From assembly GCF_003124125.1 (NCBI RefSeq), contig NZ_QCXQ01000001.1:228853-292852 (forward strand): 64,000 bases of DNA. Reading direction: 5' to 3'. Of the stretch, positions 14,007 through 43,617 are shown in pieces. The translations under genes and the position numbers were made by a program. The notes under the pieces were generated by a model, which saw only the letters and a program-made list of their open reading frames with translations, was not told where the DNA came from and searched no databases. Source of the stretch: Levilactobacillus bambusae. GTDB taxonomy: Bacteria; Bacillota; Bacilli; Lactobacillales; Lactobacillaceae. Within the stretch, counting starts at the first letter, position 1; every line of letters begins with the position of its first letter.

Positions 14007-14960
14007 ATGGAGAATATTGAACAGCGTAAGCAGCAGGCGCTAATCGCCCAGGATTTTTATCTATCCCATATGTCAATTGCGGATCTCTCAAAGAAGTATC
14101 ACCTAAGCCGCTATTTAATTACCAAGGGGTTAGATGAAGCAATGGAAACGGGCTTGGTTGACATTAAAATTAATGCCCCCCTTGCCCGGAACTATGAATT
14201 AGAGGCTTCGCTTAAAAAACAGTTTCCGGTCCCTAATATTTACATCTTAAAGGATGCTGACAATCCAAATCATAACGCCGAAAACGTGATTCAATTTGCG
14301 GCGGGACAGGCCCAACTCCTGATTGAAGAAAGCCATATCGTTGGTTTGGCTTGGGGCGCAACCGTTTTTGATATGATTGATCACTGCCGAAGTACCGTTC
14401 GGGATGATCTCACTTTTACGCAGTTTATGGGTGAAAACATGCGGTATAACTCATTAGCGGGTTCCATGCGAATGGTTGAGAAGGCCGCTTCAAAGTTTAA
14501 CGCCCACTACGTGACTATGGTTGGGCCCCTCTATATGGTTAATGATGAGGGTCGCCAACTCCTCCAGCAGGAACCCGCAGTTGCCCCGACGTTTAGTGTG
14601 GCCTCCCGAATGGATTGTATTCTAACGGGGATTGGAACACTTGCTTCGGTTGACTCCATCAGCGCATGGCGCAATAATAAGTCAGCAATTTTTCCGGGTA
14701 TCGATCCGAATGAAATCGTGGGAATGCTCTATGGACGGCCATATGATATTAACGGCACGCTTCTGAATCAAAATGACGATAAGGTGTTAGGCGTAGACAT
14801 GAATACCATTATGGCGGTCCCACGTCGACTAGGAGTCATTAAGAGCAAGTTTAAGAGTCGTGCCGCTCTGGGAGCGTTACGTGGCGGCCTGCTAACGGAT
14901 GCCATTATGGATGAGGCCGTAGCCAATCGAATTCTAATGGAAGCCAACCAGACCGAATAA
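14007..14960 (+). CDS. citI: CitI-like SorC-family transcriptional regulator
   Basis: A 317-residue regulator with an N-terminal helix-turn-helix (residues about 20-45, MSIADLSKKYHLSRYLITKG) and a C-terminal sugar-binding-like domain of the SorC/DeoR type. Divergent placement from citCDEF matches citI of Weissella, a citrate-responsive activator. Start set at ATG 14007 because GGAGG (13997-14001) lies just upstream; the in-frame ATG at 13995 overlaps that site. It probably activates both divergent promoters in response to citrate. Confidence 0.88.
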   Translation: MENIEQRKQQALIAQDFYLSHMSIADLSKKYHLSRYLITKGLDEAMETGLVDIKINAPLARNYELEASLKKQFPVPNIYILKDADNPNHNAENVIQFAAGQAQLLIEESHIVGLAWGATVFDMIDHCRSTVRDDLTFTQFMGENMRYNSLAGSMRMVEKAASKFNAHYVTMVGPLYMVNDEGRQLLQQEPAVAPTFSVASRMDCILTGIGTLASVDSISAWRNNKSAIFPGIDPNEIVGMLYGRPYDINGTLLNQNDDKVLGVDMNTIMAVPRRLGVIKSKFKSRAALGALRGGLLTDAIMDEAVANRILMEANQTE

Positions 14961-15055: not shown

Positions 15056-15085
15056 TTGCATTATCAATGATTAATTCGATATGAT
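15056..15085 (+). promoter_or_regulatory. Promoter of the candidate toxin RNA
   Basis: TTGCAT (15056-15061), 18-bp spacer, TATGAT (15080-15085). No annotated-size gene follows on this strand before a terminator at 15332-15363. Confidence 0.6.
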
Positions 15086-15203
15086 ATACCTATCGTCAAC
15101 CAAGGGAGTAGCTACCCAAGCATGGCGAGAGCGAGTTTATTAAACGGTTTAGCCTTCCCAATCGCGAATAAGGGGGCGAGAACATGTTTAATAAAAGAGG
15201 TGA

Positions 15204-15305
15204 ATGGGCATTTACCTAGCATGGACATTGCTAGTATTGTCGCGCGCCGCAATTGGCTTTGCCAAAGCTTACGCGATAATAAAAAAAGCTAACCACAACG
15301 GTTAG
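15204..15305 (+). CDS. 33-residue hydrophobic peptide, candidate type I toxin
   Basis: ATG at 15204 behind AAAGAGGTGA. The product starts MGIYLAWTLLVLS, has one hydrophobic stretch over about residues 3-26 with an internal Arg and Lys, and ends with KKANHNG. Single-span peptides with a charged tail made from a long structured mRNA and opposed by an antisense RNA are the rule in type I toxin-antitoxin loci. A 56-codon frame (15122-15292) overlaps it in another phase but its ribosome site is 13 nt from the ATG, too far. No named toxin family recognised. Confidence 0.45.
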   Translation: MGIYLAWTLLVLSRAAIGFAKAYAIIKKANHNG

Positions 15306-15306
15306 C
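15281..15306 (-). terminator. Terminator of the candidate antisense RNA
   Basis: On the minus strand GCTAACC, loop, GGTTAGC (15306-15288) followed by seven T (15287-15281). It overlaps the end of the 33-codon frame on the other strand. Confidence 0.8.
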
Positions 15307-15331
15307 CACCCAATAACCGAAACTCGCGACG

Positions 15332-15363
15332 GAACGGAGCCAGTGCAATGGCTTCGTTCTTTT
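15332..15363 (+). terminator. Terminator of the candidate toxin RNA
   Basis: A 10-bp stem with one G-U pair (15332-15341 with 15350-15359), loop AGTGCAAT, then TTTT. Confidence 0.8.
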
Positions 15364-15379
15364 AATTTCGATTACGGTT

Positions 15380-15408
15380 ATTATAGCATGGTAGATTACT
15401 CATGACAA
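15380..15408 (-). promoter_or_regulatory. Promoter of the candidate antisense RNA
   Basis: Minus-strand TTGTCA (15408-15403), 17-bp spacer, TATAAT (15385-15380) with a TGC extension. One of the best matches to the sigma-A consensus in the window. Confidence 0.75.
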
Positions 15409-15510
15409 GAAGTGACGTCTTGACGCCAGTTGGCCAACCTCCCCTAAAAATGACTACCGAAATAATTATAAGTATTGAACAGCCACAATCTTTCCGGATA
15501 GCTAGACTAA

Positions 15511-15548
15511 CAAACTCCCCCACCCGAGTCATCGAGTGAGGGAGTTTG
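15511..15548. terminator. Terminator downstream of the DASS transporter
   Basis: CAAACTCCC (15511-15519) pairs with GGGAGTTTG (15540-15548), with extra pairing inside the loop. Confidence 0.75.
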
Positions 15549-15572
15549 TTTAGTGAAGCGAACCTTTAAGTT

Positions 15573-16994
15573 TTACCACATTCCGATCAGTTTCATCCAT
15601 AGACCACCAATTCCGATCCAAATGATCAGGTAAACGGGGCCTAAAATGGCGTTCATTCGCCACCAATCCGATTGTTTGACGTAACCGGCCGCAAATAATA
15701 CGCTGGCCGGGCCATTAGCGTAGTGGGTAGTTGATGCAAAGATACTTCCCGTAAAAGCTAACGCCATTGCGGCTAAAGATCCGGGAGTTCCGGCAGATAG
15801 TAAAATAGCGAGCAAGGCTGGGTACATGGCCGTCACGTGAGCTGTTCCGCTCGCAAATAAGTAGTGACTGTAGAAGTAGAAGAGGATAACAATCACGAAC
15901 ACAATAGCCCAGTTATACCCCTTCAAGGCACTCCCCATTGCGTTAGATAACCATGTAATTAAGCCTAATTTATTTAATTCGTTTGCCATAAAAATTAGCA
16001 CTGAAAACCAAATCAACGTACTCCACGCTCCGGTCTCGTGTAAAATATCACTTACATCCAGAACACCCGTTACGAGTAACGCCGAAACCGCTAAGAAAGC
16101 GACTAAGGTGGCATCCATTCCCGTTAGACTGGAGGTCATCCACAGGACGAGGGCGACCACAAAGACCCCAGCCATGATTTTTTCGGCCGTACTCATTTTT
16201 CCCTGTGTCTTTAACTGATCCTCGGCCCAAGCCTTAGCGTTGGGCGTCTCCTTAATTTCTGGTGGATACATCTTGTAGATTAACCACGGAATAACAATAA
16301 TACTAATGATTGCTGGAACAATTGCGGCGATTAACCATTCCATCCATGAAATATGAATTCCCCGTTGGCCCGCCATCGAAACGGCTAACACATTGGGAGC
16401 CATAGCCGTCATAAAGGTGGCTGCCGCAATAATATCACTATGAAAGGCAATAAAAGAGAGGTAGGCGCCTAGTTTACGTGAGGACGCCTGATCATTTGGG
16501 TGAGAATCAAAGGCGTTAGCTAAGGATTCCATGATGGGGAAAACGATTCCCCCAACCCGGGCGGTACTACTTGGCGTTGCAGGAGCGGTCACAAAGTCAA
16601 CTGCCATTAATGAATAGGCTAAGCCCGTTGTTTTCCGGCCAAACCATTTAATGAAAAGGTAAGCAATCCGACTGCCCAGTCCCGTTTTAATAAATCCTCG
16701 GGACATAAAGTACGCGGCCACAATCATCCAAACGGTATTATTACCAAAGGCTTCCGCCCCTTCGTCCATGGTCGTAATACCAGCTAAGACCATTAGCGAG
16801 AAACCAACAATGGTTACCCCCGCGATGGGTAGCGGCTGCGTAATACAACCTACAATTGTTGCAACGAAAATTGCCAGCATGTACCAAGCGTTTAAAGCAA
16901 TCCCTTCCGGTCGGATTGGGGTACACGCCCAAATAATGAGCCCAATTAAAATTGGCCAGGCCCATTTTTTCCATTGAAATTTTGCAAGAGTCAT
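15573..16994 (-). CDS. DASS-family citrate/dicarboxylate transporter
   Basis: A 473-residue anion permease with about 12 hydrophobic segments. The two family carboxylate-binding signatures are TPSSTAR (residues about 136-142, where many relatives have TPSNTAR) and the C-terminal ATTHYANGPA segment (here STTHYANGPASVLF). E. coli CitT, a citrate/succinate antiporter, belongs to this family. It lies 17 bp downstream of the dehydrogenase gene in one operon and next to the citrate lyase cluster. This suggests uptake of citrate, possibly in exchange for malate or succinate. Exact substrates cannot be read from sequence. Confidence 0.88.
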   Translation of the reverse strand: MTLAKFQWKKWAWPILIGLIIWACTPIRPEGIALNAWYMLAIFVATIVGCITQPLPIAGVTIVGFSLMVLAGITTMDEGAEAFGNNTVWMIVAAYFMSRGFIKTGLGSRIAYLFIKWFGRKTTGLAYSLMAVDFVTAPATPSSTARVGGIVFPIMESLANAFDSHPNDQASSRKLGAYLSFIAFHSDIIAAATFMTAMAPNVLAVSMAGQRGIHISWMEWLIAAIVPAIISIIVIPWLIYKMYPPEIKETPNAKAWAEDQLKTQGKMSTAEKIMAGVFVVALVLWMTSSLTGMDATLVAFLAVSALLVTGVLDVSDILHETGAWSTLIWFSVLIFMANELNKLGLITWLSNAMGSALKGYNWAIVFVIVILFYFYSHYLFASGTAHVTAMYPALLAILLSAGTPGSLAAMALAFTGSIFASTTHYANGPASVLFAAGYVKQSDWWRMNAILGPVYLIIWIGIGGLWMKLIGMW

Positions 16995-21890: not shown

Positions 21891-22418
21891 TTAAAGACGA
21901 TTTTTTAGCGATTGAACAATTTGATTATTCAGCAAGAGGTAAATCAAAATAATTTGAATGGGGGTCATCAGAATTTCCTTAAGCAGTCGGGTTGGCAAAA
22001 TGGCCCAAATTGGTGTTTGGTACATTAAATACAACCAAAGCGTGTTCAACCCCGCGTTAACAAAAACGGCAATCACTAATTGGGCAACAATGATCCGGCT
22101 CCAACCAACATGGTTCCGCCCGTAGAAGGCAACCCCATAAATAAGCGCCGCAACAACGGCTGAGATGGTAAACCCAATGAAATACTGGCCGCCCATCATG
22201 ACGGTACCAATAATATCAACCAGGCCAGCCGCAATTGCCGCCCAAAACGGGCCAAACCACTCGGCCATTAGTGCAACCACTAGAAAGGTAAAACTGAACC
22301 GTAAATACTGGTTGCCAATTGTTAGCCGGCTCAATATTAATTGGGCAGCCATTAAGATCCCTAATGTGACTACCTGTAGCGTTGACAGCTTGCGTGGTCC
22401 AAATGCAAGTGTTTTCAT
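21891..22418 (-). CDS. folT: Folate ECF transporter S component
   Basis: A 175-residue six-helix membrane protein that binds folate and docks with the shared ECF energy-coupling module encoded elsewhere. Family segments include GILMAAQLILSRLTIGN, RFSFTFLVVALM and GGQYFIGFTISA. The start is set at ATG 22418, nine bases after AGGAGA; an in-frame extension to 22463 would run into the riboswitch. The upstream tetrahydrofolate riboswitch supports folate as the ligand. Confidence 0.92.
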   Translation of the reverse strand: MKTLAFGPRKLSTLQVVTLGILMAAQLILSRLTIGNQYLRFSFTFLVVALMAEWFGPFWAAIAAGLVDIIGTVMMGGQYFIGFTISAVVAALIYGVAFYGRNHVGWSRIIVAQLVIAVFVNAGLNTLWLYLMYQTPIWAILPTRLLKEILMTPIQIILIYLLLNNQIVQSLKNRL

Positions 22419-22420
22419 AA

Positions 22421-22446
22421 GACAACATCTCCTAAATGGAGTTGTC
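22421..22446 (-). promoter_or_regulatory. Hairpin sequestering the folT ribosome binding site
   Basis: On the minus strand GACAAC-TCC pairs with GGA-GAT-GTTGTC around loop ATTTA. The right arm contains the AGGAG ribosome site and the left arm uses the 3' strand of riboswitch helix P1, so the two structures exclude each other. Confidence 0.65.
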
Positions 22447-22546
22447 CACATTCCTGCGGCCAATGCGAACGTAAAATCGCGGAAAAATCCTTCGTCTGGC
22501 GTTCACATTGCGTTCCACCAGCACTTAACGCTTTACGTTCTACTCC
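22438..22546 (-). promoter_or_regulatory. Tetrahydrofolate (THF) riboswitch
   Basis: The minus-strand RNA opens with GGAGTAG, contains GCGTTAAGTG and AACGCCAGACGAAG, then GTTCGCATTGG, and closes with ACTCC. These match the order of conserved blocks in the THF riboswitch (Rfam RF01831), and P1 forms from GGAGT (22546-22542) with ACTCC (22442-22438). THF riboswitches are known upstream of folT in Firmicutes, and folT is the next gene. Confidence 0.88.
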
Positions 22547-22567
22547 GTAAATTTTATTACATCGATC

Positions 22568-43212: not shown

Positions 43213-43617
43213 ACAGAGTGCAAATCCCTGTAAGCCATGTTTTGTACCAAATCAGGATTCAGGCTCACTGACTTGGTGGTAATCATCTATCTCGAGAACA
43301 ATAACTTGTTCTCCCCCCACATTTAGTTCATTTCCAGATGTGAAGCTCCCCTACCATAAGTTTGGGTTTCCCGCTCGAGGGGTTTACCGCGTTCCACCAA
43401 CACAGTTTCCCATGTTGTATCGTCACTGTGGCACTTTTCAGGAATACTCGGACATAGCCGAAGCCTTAGTCGTTTTTTCCGCCGTAACGCCAATTAAGAC
43501 GTCCGCCAGCTTATTTTTTCGCTGACCACGAACACTACAAGCATCTCAGCTTGTGCGAGAATGGACTTTCCTCAGCCGACAATTGCCGACCGCAATTACC
43601 CAGGATTTGCACTCAGT
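43213..43617 (-). ncRNA. rnpB: RNase P RNA, type B
   Basis: The catalytic RNA that matures tRNA 5' ends. The minus strand shows the Bacillus-type blocks in order: GAGGAAAGTCCATTCTCGCA, GCTGAGATGC, GTAGTGTTCGTG, AAGTGCCACAGTGACG, GTGGAACGCGGTAAACCCC, CGAGCGGGAAACCCAAA and GTACAAAACATGGCTTACAG. The outer helix P1 forms between GAGTGCAAATCC (from 43614) and GGATTTGCACTC (ending 43216). Ends are therefore good to a few bases. Confidence 0.96.

Follow-up and report, generated by a model that had tools for sequence, protein, structure and literature searches.

A candidate type I toxin-antitoxin module of Levilactobacillus bambusae, provisionally assigned to a new family in Lactobacillaceae

INTRODUCTION

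In the Hok/Sok system the mok leader overlaps the toxin start and the antisense RNA lies opposite the mok start. In TxpA/RatA and BsrG/SR4, the overlap with the antisense RNA is at the 3' end of the toxin mRNA. The par/Fst locus (RNA I-RNA II of pAD1) is described, in the sections of the cited papers that we drew on, as a pair of convergent RNAs that carry repeats, with a single-span peptide of about 30 residues that has a charged tail; one copy of the repeat lies close to the start of translation and another opposite the antisense RNA (PMC7472228, PMC5608710). The Fst signature given there is PxxxG within the span and a Trp before the charged tail (PMC7472228), and the only type I toxins that the cited text names in lactobacilli are of the Fst type (Lpt).

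Here we analyzed a 64,000-nucleotide stretch of the L. bambusae genome (the window, to which all coordinates refer unless another contig is named), in which a preliminary description had proposed a type I toxin-antitoxin module at 15056-15408. Our results support that reading: the peptide frame is conserved, the antisense unit is conserved with it, and the locus has no gathering-level match to a known RNA family. By its architecture we provisionally file the module as a type I system outside Fst and Hok, in a new family.

RESULTS

Predicted convergent transcription units downstream of a citI-like gene

The module is flanked by a citI-like regulator gene (Sugar-bind domain), which ends at 14960 and is followed by a terminator-like hairpin, and by a gene on the minus strand for a Na_sulph_symp/CitMHS-type transporter, which ends at 15573. 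The space that separates the module from the transporter gene holds a near-perfect inverted repeat (15509-15550), probably a terminator; sub-threshold Rfam matches to miRNAs at the same place are taken as chance. Elsewhere the window holds a tetrahydrofolate riboswitch (RF01831, 73.2 bits; 22455-22549, minus strand) at the start of a frame (21891-22463, minus strand) that by eye resembles the membrane component of a vitamin transporter, and a bacterial class B RNase P RNA (RF00011, 330.8 bits; 43226-43607, minus strand).

Two convergent transcription units are predicted within 15056-15408, a plus RNA of about 275 nt and a minus RNA of about 93 nt. The sequence features of the two opposing units claimed in the preliminary description were confirmed, and their layout recurs in relatives above shuffled controls. 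The plus promoter (15056-15085), read directly from the sequence, has a good -10 element (TATGAT, 15080-15085) and, across an 18-nt spacer, a -35 element (TTGCAT) that matches at only 3 of 6 positions; the promoter is weaker than had been implied, and because of its -35 it is absent from the scan list. The predicted toxin mRNA, RNA I (15092-15366, plus strand), would run from this promoter to a terminator of 12 pairs that the scan placed at 15331-15360, close to the 15332-15363 given before, and its length of about 275 nt agrees with the earlier estimate of about 270. Full-length RNA I (MFE -99.3) folds far better than shuffled sequences (z -6.25).

On the minus strand, the scan recovered the proposed promoter at 15380-15408 (TTGTCA-17-TATAAT with a TG-extended -10, 11/12). 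It also found the antisense terminator, previously placed at 15281-15306, as 9 pairs followed by a T-run at 15307-15287, overlapping the 3' end and stop codon of the toxin frame. The predicted antisense RNA, RNA II (15281-15373, minus strand), is complementary to the 3' part of RNA I and at about 93 nt fits the proposed RNA of about 90 nt; it also folds better than shuffles (z -3.42). In a 1.8-kb stretch we counted seven promoter-like sites, compared with 3.4 +/- 1.8 in shuffles, and three terminators, compared with 1.7 +/- 1.4. Since these counts are barely above the shuffles, single sites prove little and conservation in relatives decides.

Near its 5' end RNA I has a stem-loop, GGG AGUAGCUA CCC (15104-15117, plus strand), recognized by comparing 26 sequences by eye. 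Several relatives (for example L036, L047, L041 and L035) carry a GGATTAGCTACCC or GGGTCGCTCCC hairpin near the 5' end, followed by a CTTAGTGA-like stretch. Positions 15131-15137 (plus strand) are predicted to form a long-range pairing with 15321-15327 (probability 1.0 for five of the seven pairs, 0.85 and 0.52 for the other two); as a family feature, long-range pairing of the 5' segment was not significant in a family-wide test.

The toxin candidate is a conserved single-span peptide

The 33-codon single-span frame named earlier is present at 15204-15305 on the plus strand. Its product, MGIYLAWTLLVLSRAAIGFAKAYAIIKKANHNG, is our toxin candidate on the basis of the frame list, family alignments and synonymous bias in relatives; it has a single hydrophobic span (best 19-residue hydropathy 1.55) and a basic tail. 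Related peptides end in AYxIIKK followed by a short polar tail. The A, A-Y and I-K-K residues are invariant in the eight peptides found without a motif filter and again in a larger alignment of 25, although the DNA pattern used to read the 18 added peptides already requires most of those residues.

The expectation in the preliminary description that the frame would be conserved with synonymous-biased changes was borne out. Across 16 close pairs (of 93 possible, with each sequence used once and with one pair having a stop inside the compared stretch), single-change codons in the peptide frame were synonymous in 37 cases and non-synonymous in 25, where 24.7% synonymous is expected (p=5e-9), and the same pairs gave 16:44 and 7:51 in the other two frames. 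Within the 66 bases before the AY motif, 43, 26 and 12 changes fell at codon positions 3, 1 and 2.

The first reading had recognized no named toxin family, and we likewise obtained nothing convincing from Pfam, NCBIfam, PHROGs, PADLOC, PDB or Rfam. Matches in Pfam, NCBIfam and PHROGs were scattered and weak, common to at most three members (best E 0.006), and the family peptides had no match in PADLOC or PDB. The Pfam and NCBIfam families to which the 25 peptides had matches included no type I toxin model, and at E<=1 no Hok model. In the proposed check against known RNAs, housekeeping RNAs included, neither the locus nor any of 15 relatives reached the gathering level of an Rfam family, and permissive scans gave sub-threshold matches only.

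The family spans Lactobacillaceae chromosomes, plasmids and viral contigs

DNA of the region matched in 2 of 40 genomes, one of which is its own, and the peptide search, at E<=1, gave matches in 8 of the 36 genomes of the genus. Four weak peptide matches (L005 in G045, L006 and L012 in G016, and L007 in G004) proved on reading to have a related peptide and the same 3' layout. The distribution in the genus is patchy, with 5 of 36 genomes carrying a copy: the source genome, G004, G016 and G045 by peptide and G023 by profile. The G023 copy has AD for AY, has no called minus promoter and looks degenerate, and in both this copy and L005 a neighbouring terminator-like hairpin stands in place of the leader. 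The L006 core is identical to that of L098 from Levilactobacillus brevis, and the L005 core to that of L070 from L. namurensis. In an empty-site search, citI DNA matched in 10 of 36 genus genomes including its own, mostly over short stretches.

Homologues across Lactobacillaceae, for which the preliminary description had suggested looking, were found with a profile of eight peptides. At E<=0.05 it matched in 99 of the 397 genomes of the family, in 23 of 40 genera (some of the weakest of these matches lie within long frames and are doubtful), and at E<=1e-3 in 76 of 397, with up to six matches in one genome. A 25-peptide profile matched in 22 of 395 genomes of the order at E<=1e-3, all of them Lactobacillaceae, and in a profile search of 398 phylum genomes only the window's own was found. 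The family spans Levilactobacillus, Lactobacillus amylovorus plasmids, Ligilactobacillus salivarius megaplasmids, viral contigs and others, and the homologues occupy unrelated neighbourhoods. Plasmid searches gave three records of L. amylovorus, and the peptide search of plasmids at E<=10 gave nine records, six from L. salivarius and three from L. amylovorus. The E-values are weak, but inspection of three of the six L. salivarius loci and of two from L. amylovorus supports the matches. No annotated feature lies beneath the plasmid matches listed.

The DNA pattern found 52 stretches in genome contigs, of which 41 are in Lactobacillaceae (nine named genera) and 11 elsewhere look like chance. Another 33 were found in viral contigs, four being rejected for a match within a long frame. 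Among 10 proteins flanking the viral members (four contigs), eight match PHROGs and six have a named function (three contigs): HNH endonuclease, primase, major head protein, terminase and two transcriptional activators. Viral-contig members accordingly lie near late-activator, HNH, primase, head and terminase genes; a search of deposited phage records gave no match. Pairs of oppositely oriented members, separated by a few hundred bases, were seen in G336 (contig C1, 549871-551424), which carries two such pairs, and in G283 (contig C8, 72180-72585); they offer a natural case in which to look for cross-talk. Six loci (L053, L056, L104, L043, L005 and L179) keep the 3' half of the module but have either a degenerate leader, no leader, or a neighbouring terminator-like hairpin where the leader would be; they are apparently decaying modules.

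The antisense architecture is conserved with the frame

The architecture was compared in 34 representatives, all of which carry the DNA pattern; loci lacking it were left out, among them 14 of the 29 profile-found loci L018-L046. Fifteen pattern loci were removed by hand (11 outside Lactobacillaceae and four viral ones in a long frame) and L014 was skipped as a duplicate. Matches in which the next stop lay over 35 codons away were discarded by script, three loci excepted, leaving 62 distinct cores; after six truncated or degenerate cores were left out, the representatives were picked from the remaining 56 by k-mer distance. The pattern includes the A-run, and therefore only parts outside it count as evidence.

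Outside the pattern, a minus terminator, with its hairpin directly after the A-run, was found in 27 of 34 representatives, compared with 6.3% in shuffles that keep the A-run, and a plus terminator in 30 of 34 (10.9% in shuffles). A downstream minus promoter scoring at least 9 was present in 29 of 34, against 26.5% in shuffles. The terminator stems vary in sequence and keep their pairing (GCTAACC/GGTTAGC, GCTACTTC/GAAGTAGC, GCTAATCGC/GCGGTTAGC), as compensatory change would give.

A leader frame overlaps the toxin start

An 11-codon mok-like leader frame (MFNKRGEWAFT; 15184-15219, plus strand) with a ribosome site (SD GGGGG, 15172-15176) overlaps the toxin start, in line with the preliminary description, and most members have a leader. 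A leader start with an SD score of at least 7 was found in 19 of 34 representatives, compared with 2.8% in shuffles, and at a score of at least 6 in 31 of 34 (14.4%); the loosest cut-off gave 32 of 34 (27%). The offset between leader and toxin frame in these 32 was 2 in 16, 1 in 11 and 0 in five. Of the same-frame calls (L005, L035, L049, L066 and L106), only L106 is a clear separate leader and the other four are probably upstream toxin starts. A frameshift from the leader into the toxin is disfavoured, as the frame relation differs among members, which makes coupling the likelier arrangement.

The toxin ribosome site (GAGGUGA, 15197-15203) and AUG (15204-15206) are held by a hairpin at 15198-15217 on the plus strand, AGGUGAAU/GGGC/AUUUACCU, with 8 pairs and -7.2 kcal/mol in the local fold. 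The hairpin claimed earlier is therefore real locally; however, in the full-length MFE it is replaced by a competing fold, in which about half of the ribosome-site bases are paired. The leader stop (15217-15219) overlaps the last base of the hairpin, which suggests a direct mechanical link. In the window, the G bases of the leader SD are paired at about 0.99 with bases of 15152-15159, and in the family (28 of 34 members) leader SD pairing is modestly higher than expected, at 0.76 compared with 0.66 by chance (p=5e-4).

Eight of the 34 representatives (L023, L024, L032, L036, L043, L057, L071 and L117) lack an in-frame ATG, GTG or TTG at position -45 or further upstream, and several members have, by eye, AUU, ACG or GUU about 7 bases after a purine-rich site. 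We regard near-cognate toxin starts in several members as a lead; to our knowledge, such a start as an extra brake is undescribed for type I toxins.

Many 3' UTRs in the family share a repeat with their leader

A gapped alignment defines a repeat element with one copy in the leader (15157-15180, plus strand), where it covers the leader ribosome site, and one in the 3' UTR (15317-15343, plus strand), the complement of which lies within the antisense RNA. Many 3' UTRs in the family repeat part of their own leader near the leader ribosome site, for example CTGAACTGCG in L058 and TCTAGATTA in L023. A first, crude ungapped test was weakly positive (self 7.7, cross 6.5), and the gapped score across the 34 representatives was 20.2 for self compared with 15.0 for cross, with none of 20,000 permutations as high. 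Par-type repeats in the leader and the antisense region are thus found at the family level and are weak for the window alone, where the pair scores 16.0 compared with a cross mean of 15.0 and is not significant by itself.

Because the 3' copy repeats its own leader, the antisense RNA opposite binds its own leader better. For the antisense 5' arm against the leader, self minus cross was -3.62 kcal/mol, compared with -0.33 +/- 0.48 for shuffled tails. The toxin-coding control had no self preference (+0.58), and a 5'-end control had a small one (-1.17 compared with -0.22 +/- 0.40 in shuffles, below all 24). The own tail was the best in only 9 of 34 cases, and the window's leader-antisense duplex ranked third of 34 tails and fifth of 34 leaders. 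Sense-sense pairing of leader and tail was nearly as self-specific (-3.37), as many of the repeats are palindromic, so that intramolecular folding and antisense recognition are inseparable in this data, and what the covariation of leader and tail maintains may be the fold of the mRNA and not recognition by the antisense RNA.

DISCUSSION

We consider it likely, from the sequence, that the module belongs to an unnamed Lactobacillaceae type I toxin-antitoxin family that would combine convergent RNAs and repeats of the par kind with leader coupling of the hok/mok kind. Consistent with a type I system, the locus has a small hydrophobic peptide on a short predicted mRNA and an antisense RNA gene, recognized by its conserved promoter and terminator, that overlaps the toxin gene. 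From these features we infer toxicity of the peptide, production of both transcripts and an antisense effect. No title or abstract listed in searches of the open-access literature describes the family, and the text matches listed for 'IIKKAN' were unrelated words.

In the mechanism that we propose, both ribosome sites can lie in hairpins, the toxin's in one and the leader's in another, and toxin translation should therefore need prior reading of the leader. A ribosome reaching the leader stop would open the toxin hairpin and hand over to the toxin start. RNA II, expected from the stronger convergent promoter, would be complementary to the 3' end of RNA I over about 90 nt; as part of the leader ribosome-site element recurs in the 3' UTR, RNA II could also pair with the leader and, as the covariation suggests, block it as in par. 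If the module were lost or RNA II fell, RNA I would be translated and the peptide, by analogy with known toxins, would damage the membrane. More speculatively, and with doubt outweighing confidence, the family may form a Lactobacillaceae-specific type I toxin superfamily, in which a leader and hairpin would lock translation and the antisense RNA would recognize a repeat that diversifies in step with the leader, keeping paralogues in one cell from cross-talk; several members would start at near-cognate codons (AUU, ACG, GUU) about 7 bases after a purine-rich site.

The purifying selection on the peptide and the position of the chromosomal copy between citrate genes would also suit a non-toxic small membrane protein with an antisense-regulated mRNA, such as a modulator of a transporter or of a stress response that is kept low by RNA II. 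We think this unlikely, as the neighbourhoods of the homologues are unrelated and include plasmids and phage-like contigs, with up to six matches per genome, and a house-keeping protein would hardly be expected to sit behind stacked translational locks. A chance combination of a spurious short frame with unrelated promoter-like sites could draw on single promoter and terminator matches being within reach of shuffles; the conservation of the family, the synonymous bias and the conserved architecture contradict it, and we give it next to no weight.

It is also quite improbable that the module belongs to the Fst/Ldr par family as a divergent member and not to a toxin family of its own, even though it shares the convergent layout and the repeat in the leader and 3' UTR, and par is the closest mechanism described in the text cited (PMC7472228). 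In the Pfam search at E<=1, none of 25 members matched the Fst model (Fst_toxin, PF13955). Seven genomes have matches to both PF13955 and the family (G110, G136, G165, G171, G186, G188 and G194), and among the places listed the two are always at different positions. An hhalign comparison with one Fst peptide (L174) gave a probability of 0.7%, and by eye the 25-peptide alignment has neither the PxxxG motif nor a conserved Trp before the charged tail. In the same taxa PF13955 does recover other loci, in 18 of 151 genomes at E<=1e-3; next to this the family, with 76 of 397 at the same threshold, appears at least as common in Lactobacillaceae, in samples and with profiles that differ.

If the type I reading is true, the family would account for small RNAs from intergenic regions of probiotic and food strains, supply plasmid-stabilising parts for such strains and provide a natural set of paralogous antisense pairs for studying RNA specificity.

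The preliminary description had placed the layout beside TxpA/RatA, BsrG/SR4 and Hok/Sok. Our analysis upholds the type I architecture, and the nearest system described in the sources cited is the Fst par locus, not TxpA/RatA or BsrG/SR4. With TxpA/RatA and BsrG/SR4 the module shares an antisense RNA over the 3' end of the toxin mRNA, to which it adds a leader frame and a repeat. Its likeness to Hok/Sok lies in the overlapping leader, the translation of which should control the toxin, and in an antisense RNA that may target the leader ribosome site; the antisense RNA of the module is at the 3' end, whereas that of Hok/Sok is opposite the mok start, and Hok differs in sequence and host. With par/Fst and Lpt, as far as the cited text describes them, the module has in common the convergent RNAs, the small single-span peptide with a charged tail and the repeat in the leader and 3' region, Lpt being likened by description only. 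In contrast to par/Fst, the toxin sequence is unrelated by the tests run, the single bidirectional terminator gives way to two separate ones (15287-15307, minus strand; 15331-15360, plus strand), and a leader frame precedes the toxin.
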